This document shows, in pieces, positions 2,515 to 25,326 of a DNA stretch of 64,000 nucleotides. Source of the stretch: Rhodococcus sp. KBS0724 (GTDB taxonomy: Bacteria; Actinomycetota; Actinomycetes; Mycobacteriales; Mycobacteriaceae); NCBI RefSeq assembly GCF_005938745.2, contig NZ_VCBX02000001.1:434001-498000 (forward strand), in the 5' to 3' direction. A program made the position numbers and the translations under genes. The number at the start of each line of letters is the position of its first letter. The first letter of the stretch is position 1. Below the pieces are notes generated by a model. It searched no databases. It was given only the letters and a program-made list of their open reading frames with translations, and was not told the DNA's origin.

Positions 2515-3957
2515 TTGACGACGCTCGACCGTGCACCAGTAGTCCCACCGGTTGTCGAGCGCTCGCGTTTCCTGTTCCCCATTGTTTCCGCGGCCGCTGT
2601 GTTTCAGGCAGTGCTGCAAACCGTCATCGTTCCGCTGCTTCCCGAACTCCCGCACTTCACCGGAGCGAGTCGTACCGCGGTGTCCTGGCTTGTCACGGTG
2701 ACGCTTCTGGTCGGCGCCGTCGTCACGCCCATTTTCGGGCGTCTGGCCGACATGTTCGGCAAGAAGAAAATGCTGCTGGTCGCATTCTTCTTGATGACGC
2801 TCGGATCCTTGCTGTGCGCGGTGTCCTCGAATATCTCCGTGCTCATCTTCGCGCGAGCTCTCCAAGGCGCAGGCGCCGCTGTCATCCCCATCGGAATTTC
2901 TCTGCTCCGCGACGAACTACCGCGGAACAAGGTCAACGGCGCTGTCGCCATGATGAGTTCGACGCTCGGAGTTGGCACTGCCCTGGGCATTCCGTTCTCG
3001 GCGATGATCGCTCAATACTCGAATTGGCATGTGCTGTTCTGGATCACGACGGCAATCGGGTTGTCGGTCACGCTTGCCGCCGTGTTGTTCATCCGTGAGT
3101 CGGAAGCCAGTCCGACGGGCCGCTTCGACGGGGTCGGTGCGGTAGGACTCAGCGCCGCGCTCGTCTTGTTGCTTGTCCCGATGACGCAGGGCAGCAGTTG
3201 GGGATGGGCGAGCGGTTCGGTGATCTCGATGCTGTCGGCGTCGGCGGTTCTCTTCACGCTCTGGGTATTCCAGCAACGGCGCAACGTCAATCCTCTGGTG
3301 GATGTTCGGGCCCTGGTCAAGCGCGCGGTGCTGATCCCGCACATCGCAGCGCTTCTTGTCGGCTTCGCGTTCTTCGGCAACACGCTGATCACGACTCAGC
3401 TGTTGCAGGGCACAAAGGGTCCTGGAGCCGGATATGGATTGACCATCATCTCCGCGGCACTGTGTCAGATTCCCGCCAGTGTCGCGATGGTTCTGTTCTC
3501 ACCGGTAGCGGTGCGCATCACCGATCGATTCGGTTCGCGTACGGCGATGTTGACCGGTGCTGCCTTTCTTGCCGGCGGTTACGGAATTCACGCTGTTGCG
3601 GGTAAACCCCTGTGGGGAGTGGTTGTCGCATTGGGTATTACGGCTATCGGAACCGCGATTGTCTACAGCACGCTCTCGCTGCTCATTCTCGTAGCGGTGC
3701 CGCGGCAGCGCCTTGCGGCGGCAAACGGGGTCAACTCGTTGTTGCGCACGTCCGGCAGCACCCTCTGCAGTGCGACGGTGGCAACCATTCTGGCTGCGTT
3801 TGTTGTCGCCGGCAGTGAACATTCGACGTCGTGGGCAGGTTTTGCCGTCGCCTATCTGGTGTGCGCTGCGTGCGCGGTGGTTGTCTTCGCAGTGTCTTTC
3901 CTACTCCCGCAAGGCCGCACCCCGAGAGACCTCGAACTGCCGGAACTCAAGATTTAG
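2515..3957 (+). CDS. MFS drug exporter (DHA2-type, EmrB/QacA-like)
   Basis: A 480-residue major facilitator with about 14 predicted membrane segments, the length and layout of proton-driven DHA2 exporters. The loop 2-3 motif A is clear (GRLADMFGKKKML), followed by the motif ARALQGAGAAVIPIG of this exporter group. The start is read as TTG at 2515, downstream of GGTGG and of the operator; the frame is open further upstream, but that part overlaps the TetR gene in another frame and the operator. Its 3' end overlaps the convergent KstR2-like gene by 11 bases. Substrate unknown; drug, dye or fatty-acid-like export is typical. Confidence 0.88.
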   Translation: MTTLDRAPVVPPVVERSRFLFPIVSAAAVFQAVLQTVIVPLLPELPHFTGASRTAVSWLVTVTLLVGAVVTPIFGRLADMFGKKKMLLVAFFLMTLGSLLCAVSSNISVLIFARALQGAGAAVIPIGISLLRDELPRNKVNGAVAMMSSTLGVGTALGIPFSAMIAQYSNWHVLFWITTAIGLSVTLAAVLFIRESEASPTGRFDGVGAVGLSAALVLLLVPMTQGSSWGWASGSVISMLSASAVLFTLWVFQQRRNVNPLVDVRALVKRAVLIPHIAALLVGFAFFGNTLITTQLLQGTKGPGAGYGLTIISAALCQIPASVAMVLFSPVAVRITDRFGSRTAMLTGAAFLAGGYGIHAVAGKPLWGVVVALGITAIGTAIVYSTLSLLILVAVPRQRLAAANGVNSLLRTSGSTLCSATVATILAAFVVAGSEHSTSWAGFAVAYLVCAACAVVVFAVSFLLPQGRTPRDLELPELKI

Positions 3958-4537
3958 GCGGGATTCGGAAACCGGAGAGGAAGAGCGTGATCATGAGATC
4001 GGCAAACTCTTCGGTGGTGTACTTCTGGCGGTCCGGCCAATGGTTTGTCGACCACAAGGTGTCGCGTACCGACCGATAGAAGATCTCGGGGGCGATGTCC
4101 TTGCGGAAGATCCCCTGTTCTACGCCTTCCGCAATGGCCTTGAGCCAATGCTCGCGGACTTCACGTGACGGGCCGTCGACGGACTGCAGAAGATCGTTGT
4201 CGCGAAGGTACGTCCGCTCGTTCTGGTAGATCGCGGTCGGGTGTGGGTGAAGTTCGATCACGATCAACGTCTCCCGGATGAGGCCGCGCAATACGTCCTC
4301 GGGCCCGTCGGCGGAGCGCTCGACCTGGTTGAACCGCTCCTGAATATCCGTCATGAAGACACGGAGCAGTTCCGCGACAATCGCGTTCTTGGATTTGAAG
4401 TAGTGGTACAGGCTGCCGGAGAACACGCCGGCTGATTCGCCGATGTCGCGGACCGTCGTGGATGCGACGCCTTTCTTCGCGAACAGTTCGGCCGAGCTTT
4501 CCAAGATTGTGTCTCGACGATCGGGTGTGGCTGCCAC
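3947..4537 (-). CDS. KstR2-like TetR repressor of the adjacent acyl-CoA catabolic operon
   Basis: A TetR regulator of 196 residues from GTG 4537, which has GGAG 5 bases upstream; a longer reading from TTG 4591 has a poorly placed ribosome site. The HTH (TTVRDIGESAGVFSGSLYHYFKSKNAIVAELLRVF) and C-terminal domain resemble mycobacterial KstR2, the repressor of late cholesterol catabolism that responds to a CoA thioester. It is divergent from the 4717-18859 operon, and the intergenic region carries an exact KstR2-consensus operator. It may be KstR2 itself or a paralogue with the same DNA specificity; the controlled genes differ from the classical HIP-degradation regulon, so I leave the symbol blank. 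Confidence 0.85.
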   Translation of the reverse strand: MAATPDRRDTILESSAELFAKKGVASTTVRDIGESAGVFSGSLYHYFKSKNAIVAELLRVFMTDIQERFNQVERSADGPEDVLRGLIRETLIVIELHPHPTAIYQNERTYLRDNDLLQSVDGPSREVREHWLKAIAEGVEQGIFRKDIAPEIFYRSVRDTLWSTNHWPDRQKYTTEEFADLMITLFLSGFRIPPKS

Positions 4538-4661
4538 ATGCTCTCCGCTGCTGATCTGTCCCGTTTCGGGCAGGTGTTCTCTTTCGATCAATCCTGCCTG
4601 ACGGCCTGAGTTCGAACCCGATCAGGTGTGATCCGGCGCCGTATTTCAACTTTCCGACTCC

Positions 4662-4675: not shown

Positions 4676-4691
4676 GATCAAGCGCTTGATC
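4676..4691. promoter_or_regulatory. KstR2-type operator
   Basis: A perfect 16-bp palindrome, GATCAAGCGCTTGATC. Its inner 14 bases (4677-4690) match the published mycobacterial KstR2 consensus AnCAAGnnCTTGnT at every fixed position. It lies between the divergent KstR2-like gene and the first operon gene, 25 bases before the GTG at 4717. Binding is inferred from the motif and the adjacent repressor. Confidence 0.85.
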
Positions 4692-4716: not shown

Positions 4717-5271
4717 GTGCAGAGCTTGGAGGCACAGTTCCCGCAATTCATCGGGACGGAGGCCGAACCGCCGCGCGTCGCGCGGTACGCCGTCAACGAG
4801 GCGATGATTCGCAACTGGGTGGAAGCACACGAGGACGACAACCCGGTCTACGTCGACGCGGACGCGGCGCGCGCGAGCGGCCGACGCGACGTCATCTGCC
4901 CGCCCGCGATGATCTCGACCTGGGTGATGGCCGGGTATCGCCGCTATCGCGAGGTTCAGCAGCTTCGCGCCGACGGCGTCACCGAGGACTTTTCCTACTC
5001 ACGACTCCTCTCGCTGCTCGACGCGGCCGGCTACACCTCGGTTGTTGCGACCAACGTGGAGCAGGAGTATTTCGCGGAACTGTATCCGGGCGATCACGTC
5101 ACCGCTCACTTCACGATCGAGTCCATTTCACCGTTCAAGCAGACCGGACTCGGGCACGGCTGTTTCATCACGTTGTTCAAGAACTACGTCAACGGTAACG
5201 GGAAGACCTTGGTGGAAGAGCGATTTCGGATATTGAGGTTCAACCCCGACACGCAGGAGGTGCCCGCATGA
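4717..5271 (+). CDS. MaoC-like hydratase subunit (ChsH2 N-domain-like)
   Basis: A 184-residue hot-dog protein of the MaoC N-terminal / FAS1-like dehydratase type. Start GTG 4717 has GGAGG 5 bases upstream (4707-4711). Recognisable features are VARYAVNEAMIRNWVEAHEDDNPVY, the family's N-terminal segment, and ICPPAMISTWVM. In mycobacterial ChsH2 this domain is fused to a DUF35 domain; here the two are separate genes overlapping by 4 bases. With the MaoC protein at 5735 it probably forms a heteromeric enoyl-CoA hydratase acting on a bulky steroid-like acyl-CoA, feeding the aldolase at 6142. First gene of the KstR2-box operon. Confidence 0.82.
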   Translation: MQSLEAQFPQFIGTEAEPPRVARYAVNEAMIRNWVEAHEDDNPVYVDADAARASGRRDVICPPAMISTWVMAGYRRYREVQQLRADGVTEDFSYSRLLSLLDAAGYTSVVATNVEQEYFAELYPGDHVTAHFTIESISPFKQTGLGHGCFITLFKNYVNGNGKTLVEERFRILRFNPDTQEVPA

Positions 5272-5732
5272 GCGCGGCTGAAACATCGACCAACACCGAA
5301 ACATCGACCAACGCAGTACCGGTTCCGCGGACCTCGGTGCCGGGACTGACCGTCACCGGCGACAACGACTTCTTCTTCGAGGCAGCCAAGGAAGGCCGCC
5401 TCGAGATTCAGCGTTGCGCCGACTGCAAGACGCTACGCCACCCACCTGCGCCCGCCTGCCCGTCGTGCCGCTCGTTCAGTTGGGACACAGTCGAATCCAC
5501 GCGCCGCTGCACCCTGCACAGTTTCACGGTTATTCACCACCCCAAGGACCCCGCGTTCGAGTACCCGCTGGCCGTCGGGTTGGTCGATCTGGAAGAAGGT
5601 ACCCGTCTGGTTGCGGATATCGCCGGAATCGACCACGACGACTTGGCATTCGGTATGGAACTCGAAGTCGGTTTCTCCGAGCACGCTCATGGTGAGATCC
5701 TGCCGCAGCTTCGTCGCCGCGGGGAGGCGTAG
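5268..5732 (+). CDS. DUF35 OB-fold zinc-ribbon protein, aldolase/hydratase partner
   Basis: A 154-residue DUF35 protein: a rubredoxin-like zinc ribbon (CADC about 20 residues before CPSC, near residues 50-70) followed by an OB-fold. In ChsH2 the equivalent domain is fused to a MaoC domain and binds the Ltp2 aldolase. Separate genes here suggest an obligate complex with the proteins at 4717, 5735 and 6142. The start overlaps the previous stop (ATGA) and has AGGAGG 8 bases upstream. The N-terminus contains a 15-base sequence repeated at an 18-base interval, giving a duplicated ETSTN segment, probably a disordered tail. Confidence 0.85.
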   Translation: MSAAETSTNTETSTNAVPVPRTSVPGLTVTGDNDFFFEAAKEGRLEIQRCADCKTLRHPPAPACPSCRSFSWDTVESTRRCTLHSFTVIHHPKDPAFEYPLAVGLVDLEEGTRLVADIAGIDHDDLAFGMELEVGFSEHAHGEILPQLRRRGEA

Positions 5733-5734
5733 AC

Positions 5735-6145
5735 ATGACCTTCCCCCAGGTAGAAGTGGGCTCGAATCTTCCCACGCTCGAACTGCCGTTGGACCGGACA
5801 CTCATTGTCGCAGCGGCAGTCTCGTCGCAGGATTTCGAGGACGTGCACCACGATCCGGGCAAGGCCCAGGAACGTGGCACCCCGGACATTTTCATGAGTA
5901 TCAACTCCACGAACGGGTTCATCGACCGGTACATCACCGATTGGTCCGGCCCGAGCTCGAGAATCGTCAAAACATCACTGAGGCTGGGTGTTCCCAACTT
6001 TCCCGGTGACACGATGACCTTCACCGGCGAGGTAGTCGAAAAAGACGGCTCGGCCGTCACGGTCGCCGTGGTCGGGCGCAACGAACGAGGAACACACGTC
6101 AGTGCCAAGGTGACCGTGGCACCGGTAGAAGGAGTATCGGCATGA
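5735..6145 (+). CDS. MaoC-like hydratase subunit (ChsH1-like)
   Basis: A 136-residue single hot-dog MaoC protein. The hydratase signature lies in SSQDFEDVHHDPGKAQERGTPDIFMSI, where the Asp and His of the D-x4-5-H catalytic motif occur, as in (R)-hydratases and ChsH1. The likely partner is the MaoC-like subunit at 4717, with which it would make the alpha-beta heteromer known from ChsH1-ChsH2. It starts 2 bases after the DUF35 stop and overlaps the aldolase gene by 4 bases, so equimolar production is likely. Confidence 0.85.
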   Translation: MTFPQVEVGSNLPTLELPLDRTLIVAAAVSSQDFEDVHHDPGKAQERGTPDIFMSINSTNGFIDRYITDWSGPSSRIVKTSLRLGVPNFPGDTMTFTGEVVEKDGSAVTVAVVGRNERGTHVSAKVTVAPVEGVSA

Positions 6146-7323
6146 GTCGAGGATTTTCCGGAGCAGCAGCAATCGCCGGCATCGGAGCCACGGAGTTCTC
6201 CAAGAATTCCGGGCGCAGCGAATGGCAGTTGGCGTGCGAATCGGTGATGGCGGCGCTCGACGACGCTCAGATCGAGGCGGAAGAGGTGAACGGTTTTGCC
6301 CTGTTCACCATGGAGAACAACCCCGAGATCGCCGTTGCACGTGCACTCGGTATCCCCGAACTGACCTTCTTCAGCCGGATTCCTCACGGCGGCGGTGGTG
6401 CGTGTGCACCCGTTCAGCAGGCGGCGCTTGCCGTCTCCAGTGGTGTTGCCGACGTTGTGGTCGTCTACCGCGCCTTCAACGAACGGTCGGGTCACCGATT
6501 CGGCGCCGGCCCACCACCTTTTGCGTACAACCAGTCGACGGATCAGGAATACCGGAACTGGATCAACCCGTACGGATTGCTGACTCCCGCTCAGCAGGAA
6601 GCGTTCCTGGCCAAGCTGTACATGCACAAGTACGGTGCAACCAGTGCGGATTTCGGGCAGATCTCGGTTCTCTCACGCAAGCACGCTGCCAACAACCCCA
6701 AAGCCTGGTTCTACGAGCGTCCCATCACCATCGAGGATCATCAGAACTCGCGCATGATCGCCGATCCGATCCGTCTGCTGGACTGCTGCCAGGAAAGCGA
6801 CGGCGGGCAGGCGTTGGTCATCGTCAGTGCGGAGCGGGCCCGCGATCTGCCGCACAAGCCGGCCATCATCACCGGAGCGGCACAAGGTGTTGGTCCACAA
6901 CAGATTTCGATGAGCAGCTACTACCGTGACGACATCGACAGCATGCCAGAGGTCGACCTGGTCGCTCGTCAGTTGTGGAACCAGGCCGGTATCGGCCCCG
7001 ACGACATCGACGCCGCGATTCTCTACGACGCCTTCACTCCGATGGTGCTGCTGCAGCTCGAGGAGTACGGCTTCTGTGGACGCGGTGAGGCCAAGGATTT
7101 CATCGCGGACGGCAATCTCGAGCTGGGCGGCCGACTCCCGATCAACACACACGGTGGCCAGCTCGGCGAGGGATACATCCACGGGGTCAACGGCATTGCC
7201 GAAGGCGTTCGCCTGATCCGGGGAACCTCCACGAACCAACCTACGAAAACTCTGGACAACGTACTCGTGACCGGCGGTTCGCCCGTCCCGCACAGTGCGC
7301 TCGTCCTCTCCGCGGATCGCTGA
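6142..7323 (+). CDS. Thiolase-fold lipid-transfer-type aldolase (Ltp2-like)
   Basis: A 393-residue SCP-x/thiolase-like protein without the usual nucleophilic cysteine of thiolases. The segment DIDAAILYDAFTPMVL carries the Tyr typical of Ltp2 retro-aldolases, and INTHGGQLGEGYIHG holds the conserved His and Gly-rich loop. Ltp2 proteins perform the retro-aldol cleavage that releases a short CoA ester from a steroid side chain after hydration. The preceding MaoC/DUF35/MaoC genes are its normal partners, so a hydration plus retro-aldol step is a confident reading; the substrate is not. Confidence 0.85.
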   Translation: MSRGFSGAAAIAGIGATEFSKNSGRSEWQLACESVMAALDDAQIEAEEVNGFALFTMENNPEIAVARALGIPELTFFSRIPHGGGGACAPVQQAALAVSSGVADVVVVYRAFNERSGHRFGAGPPPFAYNQSTDQEYRNWINPYGLLTPAQQEAFLAKLYMHKYGATSADFGQISVLSRKHAANNPKAWFYERPITIEDHQNSRMIADPIRLLDCCQESDGGQALVIVSAERARDLPHKPAIITGAAQGVGPQQISMSSYYRDDIDSMPEVDLVARQLWNQAGIGPDDIDAAILYDAFTPMVLLQLEEYGFCGRGEAKDFIADGNLELGGRLPINTHGGQLGEGYIHGVNGIAEGVRLIRGTSTNQPTKTLDNVLVTGGSPVPHSALVLSADR

Positions 7324-7355: not shown

Positions 7356-8564
7356 ATGAGTGATCGGATCACCTACGCGCGGGCTACCCACGGTGAAGAG
7401 GAAATCCAGGCAGTAGTCGACGTCTTGCGAAGCGGCCACCAGGGCTTGCGTATCGGCAAGAACGTCTTCGAGATGGAAGAACGCATTGCAGCCCTGGCGG
7501 GCAAGAAGTTCGGCGTCATGTGCAACTCGGGCTCCTCGGGTCTGTACTTGGCAGTCGAGCTGCTCGGACTCCCCGCCGGTAGCGAGGTCATCACATCGCC
7601 GTTGACGTTCTCCACCGACATCGCCCCGATCGTGCGAGCCGGCCTCGTGCCGGTGTTCGTGGACGTCGAACCCAACACCTTCAACGTCGACGTCACCAAG
7701 ATCGAGGCCATGGTCACCGAGAAGACCGGTGCCATCCTGATCCCGAACCTGGCAGGCAACTGCCCGGACTGGGATGTCATTCGTGACATCGCAGACCGCC
7801 ACGGACTCAAGGTGATCGAAGATTCGTGTGACGCGATCGGCGCCACGCTCCGCGGCACTCCGACGGGCTCGCGCGCGGACATCGTCGTCACCAGTTTTTC
7901 GATGGCACACATCATCACGTGTGCGGGAACCGGCGGGATGGTGTGCGTCGACGACGAAGCCAGCCGCGACAAGGCTCTGCTGCTCCGTCGCTGGGGCCGT
8001 CGTAGCGAGCCGAACCTGTTCGGCAGCAACAAGTCCGGCCGGGTCTTTCGTGAAGAACTCGACGGGGTCGACTACGACAACGATTTCATCTTCGAGCTCA
8101 TGTCGTGGAACTTCGAGCCCTCCGAGCTCGGCGCAGCCTACGGCGTCGTCCAGCTCGACAAGCTGGAAGACAACTACAAGACACGTAAGGCCACGTTTGC
8201 GGCCTTCACCGCGGCATACGGCGCGCACCCCGAATTCTTCACGACACCCGTGGAACTCGACGGGCTCGACACCGCCTGGCTGTGCTACCCGGTGATGATC
8301 AACGAAGACGCACCCTTCACGCGCAGCGACATGCAGGAAGCCATCGAGGCCGACGGCATCGACACACGAACCGTGTGGAGCGGCAACGTCACTCGTCACC
8401 CGATGATGAACAACATCGAGTACCGTCAGCCGGCCGAAGGACTGCCGGAAGCCGACGCGGTTTTCGCCCGCGGCATGACGCTCGGCATGAGCCATGGCCT
8501 GCGCGACGACGAAGTTGTTCGGATTGCGGAGAGCATCAATCGTTTTGCCTCGAAGTGGAAGTAG
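7356..8564 (+). CDS. DegT/DnrJ/EryC1 PLP-fold enzyme, ColD/RfbH-like (His in place of Lys)
   Basis: A 402-residue fold-type I PLP protein. The N-terminal core NSGSSGLYLAVELLG and the PLP-Asp motif KVIEDSCDAIGATL are intact. At the position that normally holds the Schiff-base lysine (SF..xK) the sequence reads TSFSMAHIITCAGTGG, so His185 replaces it. That substitution marks the 3-dehydratases ColD and RfbH/E1, as do RRWGRR and TRTVWSGNVTRHP. The cysteines that hold the [2Fe-2S] cluster of RfbH/E1 are absent, as in ColD. Such enzymes normally act on nucleotide sugars; finding one inside an acyl-CoA operon is unexpected and its substrate is unknown. AGGAACAC precedes ATG 7356. Confidence 0.8.
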   Translation: MSDRITYARATHGEEEIQAVVDVLRSGHQGLRIGKNVFEMEERIAALAGKKFGVMCNSGSSGLYLAVELLGLPAGSEVITSPLTFSTDIAPIVRAGLVPVFVDVEPNTFNVDVTKIEAMVTEKTGAILIPNLAGNCPDWDVIRDIADRHGLKVIEDSCDAIGATLRGTPTGSRADIVVTSFSMAHIITCAGTGGMVCVDDEASRDKALLLRRWGRRSEPNLFGSNKSGRVFREELDGVDYDNDFIFELMSWNFEPSELGAAYGVVQLDKLEDNYKTRKATFAAFTAAYGAHPEFFTTPVELDGLDTAWLCYPVMINEDAPFTRSDMQEAIEADGIDTRTVWSGNVTRHPMMNNIEYRQPAEGLPEADAVFARGMTLGMSHGLRDDEVVRIAESINRFASKWK

Positions 8565-8565
8565 C

Positions 8566-9420
8566 ATGACCGATCGCTTCGAAGGACGCCGAGCGCTTGT
8601 CACCGGTTCCAGCCGCGGAATCGGTGCAGGCGTTGCAGAGAGGCTGGCAGCGGAAGGCGCTGACGTCGCTCTCGTGGCCCGGACGCTCGGTGCACACGCA
8701 ACCCTGCCTGGCAGTCTCGAGGAAACGGCCGCTCGAATTGCGAAGTACGGAAACAAGGTCGAGATCATTGTTGCGGATCTGACGGACGAGCAGCAGCGCG
8801 ACACCGTTGTGCCGGCGGCAATCGAGAAGCTCGGCGGGACGATCGACATCCTGGTGAACAACGCGGCAGCAGCGATCTATCAACCGCTGTCGGATTACCC
8901 ACTGCGTCGGCGACGTCTGATGTTCGAGGCTAATGTCCACGCACCGCTGGATCTGATGCAAGCCGTGGTGCCGGGGATGGTGGCAAACGGATACGGCTGG
9001 ATCGTGAACGTGTCCAGTGGCACCGTCAAACCGTGGCAGGGCCCGCCGTTCACGTGGGTCGAACCGGGAACTGCCATGACCGTGTACGGCGCGTCCAAAG
9101 CAGCGCTCAACAGGATGAGCAATGGCATGGGCGTGGAACTCTACGGCCAGGGGGTGCGCGTCAACACGGTTCAACCGCGGGCAGCGGTGCTCAGTGAGGG
9201 CGCAAGAGTCCTGGTCGGTGAGACTATCCGGCCGGATCAGGTCGAATCTATGGAAGAAATGGTGGAAGCGGTCACCGCGCTGTGTGATTGCGACACCGAG
9301 TTCACTGCTCGCTCGTGCGTCAGCTTGAACCTGATCGACGAATGGGCCCTGACCGTGCGTGGTCTGGACGGCACAGCATTACCGGAGACAGCAGCATTAC
9401 GAACCGAGGAGTTGGCATGA
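8566..9420 (+). CDS. Short-chain dehydrogenase/reductase
   Basis: A 284-residue classical SDR. Start ATG 8566 lies one base after the previous stop. TGSSRGIG (residues 13-20) is the nucleotide-binding loop, NNAAA near 98-102, Ser about 149, and the catalytic Tyr174-x3-Lys178 (VYGASK). A loop with GSLEETAARI after strand beta-2 is shared with the SDR at 16267, so the two are paralogues within the operon. Likely 3-hydroxyacyl-CoA dehydrogenase or hydroxy-ring dehydrogenase; cofactor and substrate are not determined. It overlaps the thiolase gene by 4 bases. Confidence 0.85.
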   Translation: MTDRFEGRRALVTGSSRGIGAGVAERLAAEGADVALVARTLGAHATLPGSLEETAARIAKYGNKVEIIVADLTDEQQRDTVVPAAIEKLGGTIDILVNNAAAAIYQPLSDYPLRRRRLMFEANVHAPLDLMQAVVPGMVANGYGWIVNVSSGTVKPWQGPPFTWVEPGTAMTVYGASKAALNRMSNGMGVELYGQGVRVNTVQPRAAVLSEGARVLVGETIRPDQVESMEEMVEAVTALCDCDTEFTARSCVSLNLIDEWALTVRGLDGTALPETAALRTEELA

Positions 9421-10547
9421 AGCCCGTCATCGTGGACGCAGCACGAACGCCGTTCGGTAAGCGTGAGGGTTGGCTGTCCGGAGTCCATGCGGCCGAACTG
9501 TTGGGATATGCGCAGTCCGGTGTCCTGGATCGGGTGGGAGTCGATCCGAATGCGGTTGACCAGGTCATCGGCGGCTGTGTCACGCCGCTCGGCGAACAGT
9601 TCGGCAATATCGTTCGCACATCCTGGATGCATGCCGGCCTTCCCCTGAAGGCGGGTTGCACCACGATCGACGCTCAGTGCGGAACAGCGCAGCAGTCGGT
9701 GCAGTTGATGGCGGGTCAGATCGCCATCGGCGCCGTCGACGTGGGCGTTGCCTGCGGTGTGGAACTGATGTCGCGGGCACCGCTCACCTACAAGGTGGGT
9801 ACCGGCCTCGGAACGCCGCGGCCGGAGTCGTGGTCACTCGATACCGTCGATCAGTACACCGCAGCAGACCGTATTGCCGTCAAACGTGGTTTCAGCCGCG
9901 AGGATCTTGATGCCTTCGGGTTGCGCTCGCAGCAGCGGGCCGCGGCAGCGTGGGACGCCGGCCGATTCGACTCGCACATCATCGACGTGTCGACCCCGGA
10001 CTCGGATGTGGTGGTTCACCGAGATCAGGGACTTCGTGAGTCGAGCCTGGAAGGTCTCGCGAAACTGCGCACCGTTCAAGAGGGTGGACTACACACCGCT
10101 GGAACGTCTTCGCAGGTCTCGGACGGTGCGAGTGCGGCACTGCTGATGTCGGCAACTCGCGCTGAGGCGCTGGGCGTGCGCCCGCGGGCGCGGATTCTGG
10201 CGCAGTGCGTCATCGGCGGCGACACCGAGTTCATGCTCGACGGTCCCGTGGACGCAGCGTCCATCGTGTTGGAACGCACAGGCTTGACGATCGCCGATAT
10301 CGATCTCTTCGAGGTCAACGAAGCGTTTGCCTCCGTGCCCATGTCCTTTGCACAAGTACACGGCGTCGACCCCGACTTGCTGAACGTCAACGGTGGAGCC
10401 ATTGCGCTCGGTCACCCGGCCGGGGCAACCGGTATTCGTCTGCTGGCCAATGCGATCGACGAATTGGAACGACGCGACAAGTCCATCGCTCTCATTGCGA
10501 TCTGCGCGTCGGCCGCCACCACCTGCCTGATTCTCGAACGTATCTGA
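9417..10547 (+). CDS. Acetyl-CoA acetyltransferase (thiolase, FadA5/FadA6-like)
   Basis: A 376-residue degradative thiolase. The acylated nucleophile is Cys88 in IDAQCGTAQQS, the His of the ALGHPAGATG motif is in the C-terminal half, and the second catalytic Cys is in AICASAATTC near the end. The last motif departs from the usual C-x-G-G-G form, as in some steroid thiolases. It would perform the terminal thiolysis of the 3-ketoacyl-CoA produced by operon dehydrogenases. Start ATG 9417 overlaps the SDR stop; a longer reading upstream has no support. Confidence 0.88.
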   Translation: MKPVIVDAARTPFGKREGWLSGVHAAELLGYAQSGVLDRVGVDPNAVDQVIGGCVTPLGEQFGNIVRTSWMHAGLPLKAGCTTIDAQCGTAQQSVQLMAGQIAIGAVDVGVACGVELMSRAPLTYKVGTGLGTPRPESWSLDTVDQYTAADRIAVKRGFSREDLDAFGLRSQQRAAAAWDAGRFDSHIIDVSTPDSDVVVHRDQGLRESSLEGLAKLRTVQEGGLHTAGTSSQVSDGASAALLMSATRAEALGVRPRARILAQCVIGGDTEFMLDGPVDAASIVLERTGLTIADIDLFEVNEAFASVPMSFAQVHGVDPDLLNVNGGAIALGHPAGATGIRLLANAIDELERRDKSIALIAICASAATTCLILERI

Positions 10548-10582: not shown

Positions 10583-12790
10583 ATGGCACTGTCCCTGCTC
10601 GAAGACCACCGTGATCTCGCCGAAGCGGTAGCCGCATTTGCGGCCCGCAACAGCGGAATTTCTGATACCCGAGCCAATTTCGCGCGCTATGCCGCCGGTG
10701 AACAGCCGGATTCCTGGAAGGCGTTGGTCAGCCAGGGTTTGCATGCGGTGCATCTGCCGGAGGAATACGGTGGTGACGGCGCGGGGCTCGCAGAACTTGC
10801 GGTGGTAGTCGAGCAATTGGGAATGGCGCTCTATCCCGGATCGTATGTTCCGACTGTCGTCGCAGGCGGAATCCTGGCAACCGGTTCCGGCAGCGCGGCG
10901 GCAACGATGCTGGGCGAGTTGGGAAATGGTGCAACCGGTGCCGTCTGCAGCGGTTCGCTGGTTGCGGAGCGCTCGGCCGCCGGGTGGACTGTCAGTGGTA
11001 CAGCCGACCCCGCCCTGGGTCTGCCAGGTGCAGATGTTGTTCTCGTACAGGCTCGTAGCAGCGAAGGCCCACTGTGGTTTCGGCTTGCGCCGGCAGCCAC
11101 CGCGGCAGTCGCGGTCGAGGACGGAATCGACCTGACACGCTCCGTCGGCACGCTGACGCTGACCGAGCATCAGGTGCCGGACGCGGAGATCGTGGAATCT
11201 CTGTTGCCGCATCGGGTCGAGTTGATCGTCAATACCGTGTACGCCGCGGAGGCCAGTGGACTGGCCGCGTGGGCGCTGCGCACAGCGGTCGAGTACGTCA
11301 AGACTCGTGTTCAGTTCGGTAGCCCGGTCGGTAGCTTCCAGGCAGTGCAGCACAAAGCGGCCATGATGCTGGTTCGTTCCGAAATTGCTTGTGCAGCAGC
11401 ATGGGACGCAGCACGGTCCGAAGACCACGACGTAAATCAGCAGACGCTTGTTTCCGCCCAGGCGGCGCTGGCGGCATTGCCGATCGGGATCGAGAACGCG
11501 CTCGAATGTGTCACGCTGCTCGGCGGCGTCGGCTTCACCTGGGAGCACGACGCGCATCTGTACTGGCGTCGCGCACTCAGCATCGCGGCTGTGGTCGGAG
11601 CTGAGGAGAGGTGGGCACACACACTGGGTGAGCGCTCGGCGGACTCGGTTCGCGACTTCTCGTTCGTCGATCCCGACATGCTGCCGGAATTGCGGGCGGA
11701 AGTACGTCGGGTATTTGCCGACGTCGAACTGCTGCCGGACGACGGAACCACCAACGCGAGTTGGGCTCCGGCCAAGGGAAGTGCCAGGCGTGCTCGTTTT
11801 GCCGAGGCAAAACTGGTTGCCCCGCATTACCGCGAACCCTACGGTTTGGGCGCAGGTCCCCAGGAACAGGCAGTCATCGCCCACGAGTTCGCCACGCGTG
11901 GATGGGCGCAACCGTCCACAGTGATCGGCGAATGGGTGCTTCCGACAATTCTCGAGCACGGCAACGCCGAGCAGCAGGACAGGTTCGTCGATCCGACTCT
12001 GCGCGCAGACATCATCTGGTGCCAACTCTTCAGCGAGCCCGGAGCCGGCTCCGACCTGGCCGGACTGAGCACCAAGGCACGCAAGGTCGACGGCGGCTGG
12101 GTCATTTCAGGGCAGAAGGTATGGAACTCGGGTGCGCACGAGGCGGATTGGGGCGTCTGCCTCGCTCGTACCGACGCGGATGCTCCGAAACACCGCGGGT
12201 TGTCGTACTTCCTGGTCGACATGACATCGGCGGGCATCGACGTTCGGCCGCTCAAGCAGTCAACGGGTAAGTCGGAGTTCAACGAGGTGTTCCTGGACGA
12301 CGTGTTCGTCCCGGACGAGTGCCTGGTTGCCGAACCGGGACAGGGCTGGAAGCTTGCAGCGACCACACTGTCGAACGAACGTCTGAGCATGGGTTCCCAT
12401 CTGCATCACGGTTCGAGTGATCAGTTCCGCCAGGTTATCGCCGATGGCAGCCACGACTGCTCACGCGAGGATGCCGTGGAAGGGCTGGGACGCAGTATTT
12501 CTCGCGAACTGGCACTCTCCGCCATGAACTTGCGCGGTGTTTCTGCTCGGCTGGCCGGTCAAGAACCCGGAGCCGAGATCAGCGTCTCCAAGGTGTACAA
12601 CGCACTGGCCCAGCGCGAGGGTTCGCGAGATCTGCTCCGTCTGTTGGGACCACGTGCGGCAGTGGTCGATCCCCGCGCCGATTACGGCATCGACCACATC
12701 GGTCTGCCATCGATTCTGTTCGGCGGCGGAACCGTCGAAATTCAACTCAATGTCATCGCGCAGCGCGTTCTCGGCCTGCCGCGCTCTTAG
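10583..12790 (+). CDS. Fused (double) acyl-CoA dehydrogenase, FadE34-like
   Basis: A 735-residue protein made of two acyl-CoA dehydrogenase modules. The N-terminal half (to about residue 340) ends in LLGGVGFTWEHDAHLYWRRA, the second half begins near VAPHYREPYGLG and carries LFSEPGAGSDLAGL (FAD/substrate loop) and GGGTVEIQLNVIAQRVLG at its end. In FadE34-type enzymes the fusion replaces the alpha-beta pair of steroid dehydrogenases, one half contributing the catalytic base. GAGGAA lies before ATG 10583. A second fused enzyme is encoded at 19839-21986, so the pathway likely dehydrogenates more than one intermediate. Confidence 0.87.
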   Translation: MALSLLEDHRDLAEAVAAFAARNSGISDTRANFARYAAGEQPDSWKALVSQGLHAVHLPEEYGGDGAGLAELAVVVEQLGMALYPGSYVPTVVAGGILATGSGSAAATMLGELGNGATGAVCSGSLVAERSAAGWTVSGTADPALGLPGADVVLVQARSSEGPLWFRLAPAATAAVAVEDGIDLTRSVGTLTLTEHQVPDAEIVESLLPHRVELIVNTVYAAEASGLAAWALRTAVEYVKTRVQFGSPVGSFQAVQHKAAMMLVRSEIACAAAWDAARSEDHDVNQQTLVSAQAALAALPIGIENALECVTLLGGVGFTWEHDAHLYWRRALSIAAVVGAEERWAHTLGERSADSVRDFSFVDPDMLPELRAEVRRVFADVELLPDDGTTNASWAPAKGSARRARFAEAKLVAPHYREPYGLGAGPQEQAVIAHEFATRGWAQPSTVIGEWVLPTILEHGNAEQQDRFVDPTLRADIIWCQLFSEPGAGSDLAGLSTKARKVDGGWVISGQKVWNSGAHEADWGVCLARTDADAPKHRGLSYFLVDMTSAGIDVRPLKQSTGKSEFNEVFLDDVFVPDECLVAEPGQGWKLAATTLSNERLSMGSHLHHGSSDQFRQVIADGSHDCSREDAVEGLGRSISRELALSAMNLRGVSARLAGQEPGAEISVSKVYNALAQREGSRDLLRLLGPRAAVVDPRADYGIDHIGLPSILFGGGTVEIQLNVIAQRVLGLPRS

Positions 12791-12813: not shown

Positions 12814-14019
12814 ATGTACCTGGATTTGTCAGAGGAGTCGAAGACTCTGCGCAAGGAATTGCGCACGTACTTCGCGGAAATCATCAACGACGAGGATCGC
12901 CGCGCGCTGGTCGACCAGACCGAGGGCGGTCCCGTCTTCGATCGCATCCTGCGCCAGATGGGCAAGGACGGCTGGTTGGGCCTGGGGTGGCCGGAGGAAT
13001 TCGGCGGCCGGGGTGAGAACCCCGAAGCTCTGTACGTGTTCTACGACGAGGTGATTCGCGCCAATGCGCCGCTGTCACTGGTCACACTGAACACCGTTGG
13101 TCCCGCGCTGATCAAGCACGGAACGCAGGCGCAGAAGGACTTCTTCCTGCGTCCGATTCTGGCCGGCGAGTTGATCTTTGCCATCGGCTACACCGAGCCC
13201 AACGCCGGTACCGACCTCGCTGCTCTCGAAACGCGAGCTCGCATCGAGGGCGACGAGCTTGTCATCAACGGCAACAAGATCTTCACGAGCGCCGGCGTCT
13301 TTGCCGACTGGGTCTGGCTGGCCGTGCGCACCGATCCGGATGCACCGACGCATCAGGGCATTTCGGTGGTACTGGTACCGACTAGCGCACCCGGATTCTC
13401 CGTGACCGAAATTCACACCGTGGGCGGAATCAGCACCTCGGCAACCTATTACGAAGATGTGCGGGTGCCGCTCACCAACGTTGTCGGTGAACTCAATCAG
13501 GGTTGGAAGCTCATCACCAACCAGCTCAACCACGAGCGGGTTGCCTTGGCAGCCCGCGGTGGTATCGCCAACGAGCTCTTCGCCGAGGTGGTCGAGTGGG
13601 CAAAGGCAGAACCTGCCGGTGACGGCCACGTCTACGACATTCCGTGGGTTCGCGAGAAGCTCGCAGAGATCTACGCGCTGCTCAGTGCGGCCGATCTGAT
13701 GAACCTGCGACTGGTTGCCGACGTTGCCGCGAACACCCTGGGCGGCGGTGATTCCGCTGCCGCCAAGATCTTCGGCACCGAAGCCGTCGTGAACACGTAC
13801 GGAATGCTGCAGGAAGTGCTCGGTGCCAAGGGATTGTTGCGTCCGGGAACGCCAGGTGCGGTGCTCGAGGGCCGCGTCGAGAACCTGGGCCGACGCGCTC
13901 AGAACAACACCTTCGGTGGTGGCACCAACGAAGTCATGCGTGAAATTGTCGCAGCGAAGTGCCTGGGTATGGCGCTTGCTGCCCGCCGCCGGCCCGCTGC
14001 ACAGAACGAGAAGAGCTGA
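12814..14019 (+). CDS. Acyl-CoA dehydrogenase (FadE28-like subunit)
   Basis: A 401-residue acyl-CoA dehydrogenase. GWPEEFGGRG near residue 65, the FAD-contact loop AIGYTEPNAGTDLAAL, and the C-terminal NTFGGGTNEVMREIVA are the family landmarks. The next gene encodes a shorter dehydrogenase-like protein lacking the C-terminal FAD signature, one gene pair per heterotetramer as in FadE28-FadE29 (ChsE1-ChsE2) of cholesterol degradation. Start ATG follows CGAGGAG. Probable role: desaturation of a bulky acyl-CoA. Confidence 0.88.
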   Translation: MYLDLSEESKTLRKELRTYFAEIINDEDRRALVDQTEGGPVFDRILRQMGKDGWLGLGWPEEFGGRGENPEALYVFYDEVIRANAPLSLVTLNTVGPALIKHGTQAQKDFFLRPILAGELIFAIGYTEPNAGTDLAALETRARIEGDELVINGNKIFTSAGVFADWVWLAVRTDPDAPTHQGISVVLVPTSAPGFSVTEIHTVGGISTSATYYEDVRVPLTNVVGELNQGWKLITNQLNHERVALAARGGIANELFAEVVEWAKAEPAGDGHVYDIPWVREKLAEIYALLSAADLMNLRLVADVAANTLGGGDSAAAKIFGTEAVVNTYGMLQEVLGAKGLLRPGTPGAVLEGRVENLGRRAQNNTFGGGTNEVMREIVAAKCLGMALAARRRPAAQNEKS

Positions 14020-14020
14020 C

Positions 14021-15142
14021 ATGGAATTCGAATTCGACGACAACCTGTCCGCAGTGCGGGATCTGAGTGAATCGATCTTCGCTGCAAAATCCGGGGTCGA
14101 CCGACTACGTGAGGTCGAGAGCGCCGGCGGTTTCGACGCGGACTTGTGGAAGCTGTTGGCCGACTCCGATGTTCTCGGAATCGCCCTCCCCGAAGAGGTG
14201 GGTGGAGCAGGTCTCGGAATGCTCGGGCTCGCTGCCGTTCTCGAGCAGCAGGGCCGACGCGTCGCGCAGGTGCCGTTGTGGTCGGTCGTCGCGACAGCGG
14301 CGCTGCCGATAGCCGAGTTCGGCAGTGCGGAGCAGAAAGCGTCGTGGCTTCCCGGCCTGCTCGACGGTTCCGTGATTGTCGCGGGCGCATTCGACATCGG
14401 CCACGGAACCAACCTGCCCGTGCGGGCCGAGGCAACGGGTGACGGATGGACTCTGCGCGGAACCGTCGATTCGGTGTCCGCTGCTGATGTTGCCGACGCA
14501 CTGGTTGTTCCGGTGGCCATGCCGGACGGCGGAACGAACGTGATGATCGTCCCGACCGAACGACTCGTGCGCACCACCCTGAATGTGACGAACCGTGAAA
14601 GTAACAGCGCGGTGCAGTTCGACGGCGCTACCGTCAGTGCCGGGGACGTTCTGCCCGGCGACGGCACTGCCGTTTACGAGTGGACGCTGCGCCGAGCGCG
14701 GGTTGCTCTGGCAGCCTTGGCTGTTGGTGTGTGCGAAGAGGCGCTGGCCATGACAGCGAAGTACACGTCGGAGCGCATCCAGTTCGGTCGACCGATCTCC
14801 ACCAACCAGGCCGTCTCCGTCCGGGCCGCCGACGCGTATCTCGACACGGAGAGCATCCGGCTGACCACGCACCGTGCAGCCTGGCTGATGGACACCGGAG
14901 TGGAGAGCGAAGCGGAAGCCGCTGCGCTGGTTGCCAAGTGGTGGGCATCGCGCGGCGGACTTCGGGTAGTTCAGGCAACTCAGCATCTGCACGGCGGAAT
15001 CGGCGCAGATGTCGACTACCCGATCCATCGCTACTTCCTGTGGGGGCGTCAGATCGCCTTCTCTCTGGGGAGCGCAGGCACGATCGGGATGGAACTGGGC
15101 AATGTCCTGGAGAAGGGTGCTTCGATCGGCGCACCTGTATGA
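14021..15142 (+). CDS. Acyl-CoA dehydrogenase-like partner subunit (FadE29-like)
   Basis: A 373-residue acyl-CoA dehydrogenase homologue. ALPEEVGGAGLGMLGL is a normal N-domain motif, but the C-terminus reads QHLHGGIGADVDYPIHRYFLWGRQ rather than the GGT-E-I form, like the partner subunits of steroid dehydrogenase heterotetramers. It begins one base after the stop of the 12814 gene and overlaps the next gene by 4 bases. I infer a complex with the preceding protein. ATG 14021 is chosen over an upstream in-frame reading that runs inside the previous gene. Confidence 0.86.
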   Translation: MEFEFDDNLSAVRDLSESIFAAKSGVDRLREVESAGGFDADLWKLLADSDVLGIALPEEVGGAGLGMLGLAAVLEQQGRRVAQVPLWSVVATAALPIAEFGSAEQKASWLPGLLDGSVIVAGAFDIGHGTNLPVRAEATGDGWTLRGTVDSVSAADVADALVVPVAMPDGGTNVMIVPTERLVRTTLNVTNRESNSAVQFDGATVSAGDVLPGDGTAVYEWTLRRARVALAALAVGVCEEALAMTAKYTSERIQFGRPISTNQAVSVRAADAYLDTESIRLTTHRAAWLMDTGVESEAEAAALVAKWWASRGGLRVVQATQHLHGGIGADVDYPIHRYFLWGRQIAFSLGSAGTIGMELGNVLEKGASIGAPV

Positions 15143-16209
15143 GCATGCGGGAGAACCTGGCGGTGCGCGTGCTGCGCGCACCGCAGGGACTTCCACAGGC
15201 AGAGGACTTTTCGGTCGAGAAGGTTTCGGTTCGGCAGCCGCGAGACGGTGAAGTGCTGTTCCGGGCTTGCTACCTGGCTATCGACCCCAGCGCCCGTCGG
15301 CGGCTACCCGCCGCCGACGGGCGGCCTGGTCCGCTCGGCGCGGTGGCCGGGATCGGCGACATCGTGCTGGCGGGCGTGAGTCCGCCTCAGGCCGGACTCG
15401 ACGGTGCGTTGGTGGGTGAGGTTGTCGCGTCGCGTCACCCGGATTTTGCGCCGGGCGACTTGGTCCGTGGCGGAAATACGTGGCAGATTTTTCACACGGT
15501 TCGAGGCGAGTTTCTGGACTTGTTGGAGCCGCGTTCGGGATTTCGCTTGGAAGCGGAACTGGGGGTACTCGGTAGGCCGGGATTCGTGGCGTACTGCGGA
15601 CTGCACTTCGCGTCGACGCTCGAAGCCGGTATGACGGTGGTGATCTCGGCCGCCGGCGGCGCCGTCGGGATGGTGGCCGGACAACTGGCCGCGCTGGCCG
15701 GCGCTCGCGTCGTCGGAATAGCAAGTGGTGACAAGGTCGCCTATGTCGTGAACGAGCTCGGGTTTTCCGAGTGCATCGATCGGACGAACGAGACGATCGC
15801 GGCGGGATTGGCGAGGACCTGCCCGAATGGTGTCGACCTGTACTTCGACAACGTCGGCGGTGAGACGCTGGCCGCAGTGTTCGAGCAGCTCAACAACTTC
15901 GGGCAGGTTGTCGTGTGCGGCATGGCAAGTGAGTACAACGGTGCCGAAGCCGACTTCGGCCCACCACTGCGCCCCGTTCTTCGTAAACGCCTGAAAATTC
16001 AAGGCTTTGTGGTGTATGACCATTACGAGCATTATCCGCGCTACCGCGAGTGGGCAATCGAACAACTCGACGCACAGCGGTTGCGCTACCGCGAAGACGT
16101 CGTAGACGGGTTGGCAAATGCTCCGCAGGCGTTGGCCAACGTTCTGACGGGCCGCAGCCGTGGCCGTCAACTCGTGCAACTCGGTCCGGCGCCACACATT
16201 CTGCGGTAG
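15139..16209 (+). CDS. MDR-family NADP-dependent oxidoreductase (COG2130, curcumin/prostaglandin reductase type)
   Basis: A 356-residue zinc-free medium-chain reductase. The N-terminus has YLAIDPSARRR, the segment typical of the PTGR/curcumin reductase group, and the Rossmann fold begins VVISAAGGAVGMVAGQLAALAG with VVGIAS. NVGGETLAAVFEQLNNFGQVVVCGM is also family-typical. These enzymes reduce alpha,beta-unsaturated ketones or acyl-CoAs with NADPH, so a double-bond reductase for a ring or side-chain enone is plausible. The start overlaps the previous stop by 4 bases. Confidence 0.85.
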   Translation: MSMRENLAVRVLRAPQGLPQAEDFSVEKVSVRQPRDGEVLFRACYLAIDPSARRRLPAADGRPGPLGAVAGIGDIVLAGVSPPQAGLDGALVGEVVASRHPDFAPGDLVRGGNTWQIFHTVRGEFLDLLEPRSGFRLEAELGVLGRPGFVAYCGLHFASTLEAGMTVVISAAGGAVGMVAGQLAALAGARVVGIASGDKVAYVVNELGFSECIDRTNETIAAGLARTCPNGVDLYFDNVGGETLAAVFEQLNNFGQVVVCGMASEYNGAEADFGPPLRPVLRKRLKIQGFVVYDHYEHYPRYREWAIEQLDAQRLRYREDVVDGLANAPQALANVLTGRSRGRQLVQLGPAPHILR

Positions 16210-16266: not shown

Positions 16267-17190
16267 ATGACAAATGACAGCACCACGTCGACAGGCCTCG
16301 CGGTTGTCACGGGAGCCAGCCGAGGAATCGGCCGGGCGATCGCGAGACGCATTGCAGCAGAGGGAATACCCGTTGCAGCGGTCTCGCGCACATTGCGGGC
16401 GGGCGACGGAAGCCTCCAAGGCTCGCTCGAGGAAACCGTCGAATTGATCACTGCGGCAGGGGGAACGGCACAGAGCTTTGCTGTCGATCTGGGGGATCCC
16501 GAACTCGATCGCGCCGCCCTGATCGCCAGGATCGAGGACAGCTTCGGACGACCGGTGAGCATCCTCGTCAACAACGTGGCTGCGTCTCGGCGCTACGAGA
16601 CACTTTTTGCGGACATGCCGCGCGAGTGGTTCTACGACTCCGTCGAAACGAACGTGTGGAACACCTGGGACCTGATGAAGGCGGTCATCCCGAGCATGCG
16701 CGCGAACGGCGCTGGGTGGATCGTCAACATCTCGTCCCGGCAGGCCGGGCCACGCGTCGGGCCGCCTTTTGCGCCGCATCCACTGGCCGGTTCGGTCTTG
16801 TACGGCGGAACGAAGGCGATGCTCGACCGCATCAGCACGGGATCCGCGATGGAGTTGCACGCCGACAATATCGCCGTGAATTCCCTTGCCCCCAATCGCG
16901 GCGTCGCAACCGAGCACGCTGCCGCGGCGGTTCCGGGATGGCCGTCCGAACCCGAGGACACGATGGCCGAAGCGGCACTGCTGCTCTGTACGGCCGATCC
17001 GTCCGAGGTAACCGGCCGAGTGGCGTTCAGCCTGCCGCTGCTGAAGGAATTCGGACGCTCGGTTCGCGCACTCGACGGCAGCGGACTGCTGGACGGTTGG
17101 CAGCCGGATGATCTCGACGCGGACGGTTTCCCGGGGCACTACCTCACCTTCAACCCACCGGCCGCCGTGCCGGCCGAACTGCTGAAGTAA
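16267..17190 (+). CDS. Short-chain dehydrogenase/reductase
   Basis: A 307-residue classical SDR. TGASRGIG lies at about residues 15-22, LVNNVAAS near 100-107, the Ser in NISSRQA near 155, and the catalytic Tyr179-x3-Lys183 (LYGGTK). It shares the GSLEET insertion with the SDR at 8566, so the pair arose by duplication and probably act on related hydroxy intermediates. ATG 16267 is preferred to GTG 16258 because GGAAGG ends only at 16257. The adenylate-forming ligase starts 10 bases downstream. Confidence 0.85.
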   Translation: MTNDSTTSTGLAVVTGASRGIGRAIARRIAAEGIPVAAVSRTLRAGDGSLQGSLEETVELITAAGGTAQSFAVDLGDPELDRAALIARIEDSFGRPVSILVNNVAASRRYETLFADMPREWFYDSVETNVWNTWDLMKAVIPSMRANGAGWIVNISSRQAGPRVGPPFAPHPLAGSVLYGGTKAMLDRISTGSAMELHADNIAVNSLAPNRGVATEHAAAAVPGWPSEPEDTMAEAALLLCTADPSEVTGRVAFSLPLLKEFGRSVRALDGSGLLDGWQPDDLDADGFPGHYLTFNPPAAVPAELLK

Positions 17191-25301: not shown

Positions 25302-25326
25302 GGCCCGAGTTTGGCACAGCGCGCGG

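Follow-up and report, generated by a model that had tools for sequence, protein, structure and literature searches.

The 64,000-nucleotide stretch of Rhodococcus sp. KBS0724 considered here (contig NZ_VCBX02000001.1; hereafter the window, meaning the whole stretch of DNA that was analyzed) encodes a protein of the DegT fold in which a histidine, His185, stands in the place of the Schiff-base lysine, and the respective gene directly follows a gene for a homologue of the steroid aldolase Ltp2, as part of a putative steroid side-chain operon. Judging from its sequence and genomic setting, this protein is probably a dehydratase of the ColD type, dependent on pyridoxamine 5'-phosphate (PMP), free of an iron-sulfur (Fe-S) cluster and acting in steroid catabolism, where it would remove a hydroxyl positioned alpha to a ketone. 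To our knowledge, enzymes of the ColD/E1 kind have been known only from nucleotide-sugar biosynthesis. The two features at the center of this analysis are:

7356..8564, plus strand: predicted DegT-fold, His-type (Lys-less) enzyme dependent on pyridoxal 5'-phosphate (PLP) or PMP, from Pfam and PDB matches, alignment and a structure model
7908..7910, plus strand: codon of His185, in the place of the Schiff-base Lys, located by counting from the start of the open reading frame (ORF) and by alignment

The ORF is uninterrupted from its ATG start and encodes 402 amino acids, and its product is recognized in the Pfam scan as DegT/DnrJ/EryC1/StrS (1.1e-80). By sequence, the nearest proteins of solved structure are 3bcx (4.3e-52) and 3bb8 (6.6e-51), the latter titled as the H220K mutant of the E1 dehydrase. 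His185, found within TSFSMAHIIT, lies opposite the first His of AHHIT in the former and opposite K in the latter, corresponding to His220 of E1. The replacement of the Schiff-base Lys, already pointed out in an earlier reading made from the letters of this DNA (hereafter the sequence-only reading), is seen in 97 of the 99 aligned rows, these being 88 rows of the family (window protein included), five from sugar clusters and four RfbH-like ones, and the only two rows with Lys at this position (L002 and L003) are DegT paralogues from the window's own genome. No obvious Lys at an alternative catalytic position is found among the conserved Lys residues of this alignment. Lys50 and Lys269 are kept in 87 of the 88 family rows, and both lie outside the SFxxx(K/H) motif; the Lys50 column has K in the five sugar-cluster rows and T, L, A or V in the RfbH-like rows, and the Lys269 column has K or R throughout both of these sets. 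As the Schiff-base Lys of the DegT sugar aminotransferases is missing from the window protein in the same alignment, the usual database name of aminotransferase, carried, for example, by the record of a relative of 68% identity, is probably wrong for this His-type family.

Two known enzymes are especially instructive for comparison. One is E1 or RfbH, a type also called DdhC and AscC, with which the window protein shares the DegT fold, the catalytic His in place of Lys, and the RxWGR and TRxxxxGNxTRxP segments, the NCBIfam RfbH model being its best named match. However, the score (252.8 bits) is below the cut-off of this model (423), the identity to 3bcx is 29%, and the Fe-S cysteines are absent, as the sequence-only reading also had it: between W213 and N252, 96 of the 99 rows have no Cys at all, and three RfbH rows have three to four. 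The other is ColD, which, by sequence comparison, shares with the window protein both the His base and the lack of an Fe-S cluster, even though its similarity is lower than that of E1 (about 5e-34 versus 4e-52). ColD acts on a GDP-sugar for colitose (PMC8987622), whereas the window protein stands among steroid genes. None of the named neighbors, either in the window or in the loci of its relatives, is a colitose gene, gmd not having been specifically searched for.

The residues S58, G59, S60, F85, D156, S180, and N252 are invariant in the 88 family, five sugar-cluster and three RfbH rows, and thus a working cofactor site is likely. Five further residues, S86, D88, N131, E218, and W341, are present in all 88 family rows and are replaced by A, T, S, S, and F, respectively, in all five sugar-cluster rows, and the same positions also differ in three RfbH rows. 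As these private invariants differ from the residues of the sugar-cluster proteins, they suggest a different substrate. An AlphaFold2 model built from 16 family members, with a mean predicted local distance difference test score (pLDDT) of 81.3 and a predicted template-modeling (TM) score of 0.86, has the E1 dehydrase 3bcx as its best fold match (TM-score 0.85, root-mean-square deviation 9.1 over 407 columns, 29% identity), and the fold matches include mutants titled E1 H220K and ColD H188K S187N.

The gene belongs to an operon whose other members, along with a divergent regulator gene and a putative operator, are the following:

3947..4591, minus strand: KstR2-like TetR regulator, divergent from the operon (TetR_N, TetR_C_24; best PDB match KstR2 4w97, 2e-33; a shorter start at 4537 is possible)
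4677..4690, no strand assigned: putative KstR2-type operator ATCAAGCGCTTGAT, 0 mismatches, 26 nucleotides before the first gene
4717..5271, plus strand: MaoC-type hydratase, ChsH1/ChsH2-like (PF13452; PDB 4w78/4wnb, named Hydratase ChsH1/ChsH2, 5e-29)
5268..5732, plus strand: DUF35, or the ChsH2 C-terminal OB-fold and zinc ribbon, as a separate gene (PF01796, PF12172)
5735..6145, plus strand: second MaoC-like hydratase subunit (weak HadB match far below cut-off; no Pfam match)
6142..7323, plus strand: Ltp2 steroid aldolase homologue (NF005892, lipid-transfer protein, 655 bits, cut-off 469; PDB 6ok1, 4.6e-170)
8566..9420, plus strand: short-chain dehydrogenase (SDR) (PF00106, scanned as the longer ORF 8494-9420)
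9417..10547, plus strand: steroid 3-ketoacyl-CoA thiolase (NF005889, 594 bits, cut-off 515, scanned as the longer ORF 9288-10547)
10583..12790, plus strand: fused two-domain acyl-CoA dehydrogenase, FadE (acyl-CoA dehydrogenase N-terminal, middle and C-terminal Pfam domains)
12814..14019, plus strand: acyl-CoA dehydrogenase, half of a ChsE1-ChsE2-type pair (PDB 6wy8_B, Tcur3483, 6e-124; 4x28_A, 2.1e-110)
14021..15142, plus strand: acyl-CoA dehydrogenase, the other half of the pair (PDB 6wy8_A, Tcur3481, 2.3e-75; 4x28_D, 9.7e-54)
15139..16209, plus strand: medium-chain reductase, accessory, not found in several relatives (PF16884, PF00107; curcumin-reductase model below cut-off)
16267..17190, plus strand: second SDR, accessory
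17201..18859, plus strand: acyl-CoA synthetase, CasI-like (steroid-22-oyl-CoA synthetase), accessory (NF052587, 641.8 bits)

By homology, this is an igr-type steroid side-chain operon, that is, the gene set for removing the last three carbons of the side chain, and its substrate would be a steroid-22-oyl-CoA. The best match of the aldolase, 6ok1, bears the PDB name of a lipid-transfer protein, and we take it to be Ltp2 of T. curvata; likewise, we take 4x28 to be ChsE1-ChsE2 of M. tuberculosis, 6wy8 and 4x28 to be heteromeric steroid acyl-CoA dehydrogenases, and the thiolase to be FadA5-like. The neighbors named in the sequence-only reading (acyl-CoA dehydrogenases, thiolase, hydratases, and aldolase) are all in place, along with the TetR regulator, an MFS transporter and the SDRs, and its description of the setting as an acyl-CoA operon holds as far as it goes, the PDB matches and the KstR2-type box now narrowing it to the igr type. 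The igr operon of M. tuberculosis consists of chsE1-chsE2-chsH1-chsH2-ltp2. Common to the window operon, to igr and to casLMNOP of R. jostii (PMC8399759) are the dehydrogenase pair, the hydratases, DUF35 and the aldolase, but the window operon has ChsH2 split into two genes, a different gene order, a KstR2-like regulator of its own and the added DegT gene. In R. jostii, the genes casL-casP are assigned to the C3 side chain when cholate is degraded (PMC8399759). The word aminotransferase does not occur in the text of this bile-acid degradation review, and neither aminotransferase nor pyridoxal occurs in that of a genome survey (PMC4810484); no paper describing a DegT or pyridoxal enzyme in combination with a steroid or Ltp2 operon was found among the listed matches of our open-access literature searches.

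Two further Ltp2 operons are present in the genome, their Ltp2 proteins being 67% and 62% identical to that of the window. In both, MaoC and DUF35 are fused in one gene, and the MaoC beside both of these Ltp2 genes is 45-55% identical to the product of 5735..6145. As no DegT gene is found in the 20 kb around either, the window operon is a third, separate igr-type system of this genome; a view of it as the only igr operon of the organism, a canonical one for cholesterol or cholate, was considered and rejected in light of the two others. Beyond the operon, at 18911-21986 on the minus strand, an SDR and a second fused acyl-CoA dehydrogenase are encoded, overlapping by a few bases, and the first half of the latter matches IpdE2, below the cut-off, perhaps representing another steroid-type pair. 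Steroid genes here also adjoin a GatD-MurT pair (23342-25412, minus strand; lipid II amidation, below the model cut-offs), and R. qingshengii IEGM 1359 likewise has such a pair next to the operon.

The association of the DegT gene with Ltp2 was followed through the best 80 of 454 relatives (E 1e-3) on genome contigs, divided by identity to the window protein into groups A (at least 74%, 27 loci), B (66-73%, its 22 loci actually spanning 67-73%) and C (below, 31 loci), these cuts having been set after the gene contexts had been seen. Group A (L063-L089, 74-98% identity) is represented by Rhodococcus, Tomitella, Geodermatophilus, Blastococcus, Nocardioides, Actinomadura, Streptosporangium, Nocardia, and Nakamurella. 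In all 27 of its loci, fewer than 300 bases separate the end of the Ltp2 match from the DegT match, and the rest of the operon is largely kept. Within 9.5 kb of DegT and on its strand, both single FadE genes are found in 26 of the 27 loci, the thiolase in 25, the fused FadE likewise in 25, and the CasI-like gene in seven, others lying just past the limit. Among 28 genomes of the same genus, four of them below the quality mark of the tally, 11 possess the DegT gene (at least 81% identity) and the same 11 possess the cognate Ltp2 (at least 89%), while the remaining 17 possess neither, even though 16 of these encode another Ltp2 of 62-67%. However, nine of the 11 positive genomes are close relatives (96-100% identical), and thus few independent events are represented. 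Three of the same-genus genomes have second Ltp2 copies with one TGA within the match (G175:C1:1624958-1626127, G594:C2:2945236-2946405, and G195:C5:4763237-4764406); these matches extend to the last residue, and the TGA may just be the gene end.

Proximity to ltp2 is also an argument for a very different idea, that catalysis has been lost and the protein is retained as a structural partner in an Ltp2/DUF35 complex, since the relatives of Ltp2, as in T. curvata, act in a complex with a DUF35 hydratase. With the cofactor-site residues invariant over the 88 rows, and with groups B and C possessing no adjacent Ltp2, this seems extremely improbable.

Another possibility is that the protein is a nucleotide-sugar 3-dehydratase making a deoxysugar for a glycolipid or another glycosylated product, its location in a steroid operon being incidental. 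RfbH is, after all, the best named model, and sugar-linked relatives do exist. The nearest of these, among the 30 of 57 plasmid records listed, are at least 23 alphaproteobacterial proteins of 47-51% identity, five further records, four of them named RfbH, being 31-33% identical. Five of the 23 or more were examined (from Roseibium, Leisingera, Palleronia, Ensifer, and Sinorhizobium; 47-50% identity), and all five keep the His, have no Fe-S cysteines, and sit in CDP-sugar clusters with rfbF and rfbG directly upstream, a methyltransferase gene being next in four. These proteins (L143-L147), followed in the four cases by a class I S-adenosylmethionine-dependent methyltransferase, are likely CDP-4-keto-6-deoxyglucose 3-dehydratases working without an Fe-S cluster, possibly for a branched deoxysugar. 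However, all five differ from the window protein by S86A, D88T, N131S, E218S, and W341F, homologues of rfbF and rfbG (E 1e-15, 30% identity) are absent from the DNA surrounding the 80 genome-contig loci, which for some of them is a short stretch, and none is present in the window by its annotation. The low score with the RfbH model, the constant presence of Ltp2 next to DegT in group A and their matching presence or absence across the 28 genomes also speak against a sugar substrate. We thus find this explanation very unlikely, and the conjugated sugar that the sequence-only reading had left as an option is disfavored. The family is not confined to sugar clusters: 27 loci of at least 74% identity are in Ltp2 operons, and the five relatives of 47-50% are in CDP-sugar clusters.

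As to the reaction, E1, ColD, and SpnQ are described in PMC8987622 as sharing a common start, in which PMP forms a Schiff base with a 4-keto sugar, the His deprotonates the cofactor and the C3 hydroxyl leaves. From there, E1 and SpnQ employ an Fe-S cluster with electrons supplied by reductases, and in the clusterless ColD the intermediate is hydrolyzed, ammonia is released, and PMP is remade from glutamate (PMC8987622). With the His present and the Fe-S cluster absent, the ColD route is thus the natural one to propose for the window protein. PMP would condense with the ketone of the substrate, His185 would remove a proton from C4' of the cofactor, the hydroxyl would depart from the carbon adjoining the ketone, hydrolysis of the enamine would produce a deoxygenated ketone and ammonia, and transamination with glutamate would convert PLP back to PMP. 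The substrate would be a hydroxylated steroid or its CoA ester, broken down via the third igr-type operon, with the ketone originating from the Ltp2 aldolase (the C17 ketone) or from the adjoining SDR. We infer the reaction from the family and the residues; the cofactor form is likewise predicted, and the substrate is suggested much more tentatively. Both the class assignment of the sequence-only reading (a His-type, Fe-S-free relative of E1 and ColD) and its idea of a deoxygenation are in agreement with these data.

A His-type PLP/PMP enzyme could also carry out some other reaction, such as the amination of a steroid ketone in the manner of SpnQ, a beta-elimination or an isomerization. SpnQ without its reductase shows aminotransferase activity, and the H220K variant of E1 transaminates, but ColD and wild-type E1 do not show this transferase activity (PMC8987622). 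The polar, family-specific D88 and N131 could alter the chemistry; as to amination, judging by the annotation, the operon has no obvious gene for using a steroid amine. Overall, a different reaction of this kind appears unlikely.

Along with the dehydratase we prefer, a variant has to be considered that overlaps with it in probability, in which DegT and SDR form a two-step module, the SDR turning an alcohol into a ketone and DegT then removing the adjoining hydroxyl, and in which the target is a vicinal diol away from C17 and not the product of Ltp2. Candidate diols are the 20,22-diols of ecdysteroids and the 6,7-diols of bile acids. An SDR gene is found downstream of DegT in 21 of the 27 group A, six of the 22 group B and 10 of the 31 group C loci, including loci without Ltp2, its orthologue (E 1e-50) is present in 11 of 17 DegT-positive and in none of six DegT-negative genomes, and the gene order DegT-SDR-thiolase would suit a 22-keto-20-hydroxy intermediate. 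However, the SDR is missing from six of the 17 DegT-positive genomes, which weakens the case for it as an obligatory partner of DegT, whereas Ltp2 adjoins DegT throughout group A. A target of this kind is a doubtful one.

Within the preferred reading of a ColD-type dehydratase, the most specific proposal is that of a 16-hydroxy-17-ketosteroid dehydratase, a candidate chosen because it is to Ltp2 that DegT is tied most tightly. The operon would in this case handle C16-oxygenated steroids, such as the 16alpha-hydroxy bile acids that birds and snakes produce or acids derived from plant sapogenins; Ltp2 would free propionyl-CoA, leaving a 16-hydroxy-17-ketone, an alpha-ketol pattern like that of the 4-keto-3-hydroxy sugars on which ColD acts. 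Removal of the 16-hydroxyl by the DegT enzyme would then allow the product to enter the ordinary 17-ketosteroid pathway. Bile-acid 16alpha-hydroxylation is noted as common in snakes and birds (PMC2886068). This would make it the first PLP/PMP enzyme of steroid catabolism, with the distant relatives being catabolic ketol dehydratases derived from sugar 3-dehydratases, a rather unlikely scheme when taken in all its detail, and put forward here tentatively.

At E 1e-60, the protein is found in 32 of 201 genomes in the family sample and in six of 396 in the phylum sample, each count including its own genome. Outside of group A, the settings vary. In a quick tree, a single branch (99*) unites the window with 26 of the group A loci, while the rows from alphaproteobacteria and those resembling RfbH fall outside the rest; the deep joins are unsure because of long branches (L182, L036, and the RfbH rows). 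The groups are not strict clades, as L089 of group A is outside the A branch and L090 of group B is beside it. The clustering of the family with Ltp2 operon genes, put forward as a check in the sequence-only reading, is complete in group A and does not extend, as far as a directly upstream Ltp2 is concerned, to groups B and C; in one locus (L098), an Ltp2 of 67% and a MaoC are encoded on the opposite strand, at a distance of about 9 kb. Genes neighboring DegT in group B, and in group C, whose identities range from 56 to 63%, were annotated in part for L045, L049, L053-L055, L057, L058, L091, L119, and L129; they encode SDRs, amidohydrolases, luciferase-like and nitronate monooxygenases, FAD-binding enzymes, and alcohol dehydrogenases, as well as acyl-CoA dehydrogenase and synthetase, carbonic anhydrase, regulators, and transporters, and these settings look mostly catabolic. 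Amidohydro_2 genes accompany DegT in six of the 22 group B and five of the 31 group C loci (L095, L098, L100-L103, L117-L119, L122, and L135), one or two per locus and mostly with an SDR too, in Prescottella/R. hoagii, Nocardia, and Acidimicrobiia. The four such neighbors scanned match no NCBIfam family at 1e-20, and thus no pathway is identified from these. Two oddities may be mentioned. One is a 737-residue open frame (L058:9051-11264, minus strand) in which the DegT domain is followed by DUF167 (YggU) at the C-terminus and preceded by some 220 additional residues at the N-terminus; this is either a fusion or an artefact, whether of the assembly or of the chosen start. The other is a copy on a contig filed as a metagenome-assembled genome (MAG) of Bifidobacterium breve (L133), almost the same as that in an Acidimicrobiia MAG (L127) and probably mis-binned.

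A number of observations weigh against a ColD-type dehydratase of steroid catabolism. As no Ltp2 is found directly upstream in any of the 53 loci of groups B and C, the chemistry is not tied to Ltp2 family-wide, and L090 (73%), in spite of its place beside group A in the tree, has no operon in its 21 kb. Two of the five private residues, S86 and E218, recur in the archaeal row L182. Should the SDR be required, its absence from some of the DegT-positive genomes, as discussed above, would count against the proposal, and the score of the synthetase at 17201..18859 is below the cut-off of the CasI model (900). In the structure model, pLDDT is below 50 in the active-site loops (182-187, 216-228, and 245-250), and thus no pocket geometry, including a pocket-lining role of the private residues, is claimed. 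Finally, neither the window nor the genome (13 places, versus 14 for the reversed control) shows any excess of the operator motif.

The operator deserves a separate comment. The KstR2 operator consensus has the core CAAGnnCTTG, and the only match in the window with one mismatch or none is the box at 4677-4690, 0.84 matches being expected by chance. Its weight derives not from this match but from conservation of its position in the related loci: in 23 of the 25 group A loci that have the first gene on the same strand, CAAGnnCTTG is found no more than 120 nucleotides upstream of this gene (MaoC1), as compared to 0.2 expected from the motif density there. Along with the divergent TetR gene, this points to KstR2-type regulation of the operon.

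In conclusion, a mostly actinobacterial branch of the ColD/E1 enzymes residing in catabolic operons would show that a deoxygenation chemistry has been reused for breakdown, and such a branch could explain how bacteria handle hydroxylated steroids that the ordinary pathways cannot finish. If true, dehydroxylation by a ColD-type enzyme would add a step of a new kind to the breakdown of steroids and, if the reaction is confirmed, it would also provide a biocatalyst that takes one hydroxyl off a steroid and needs neither metals nor radicals nor a reductase.

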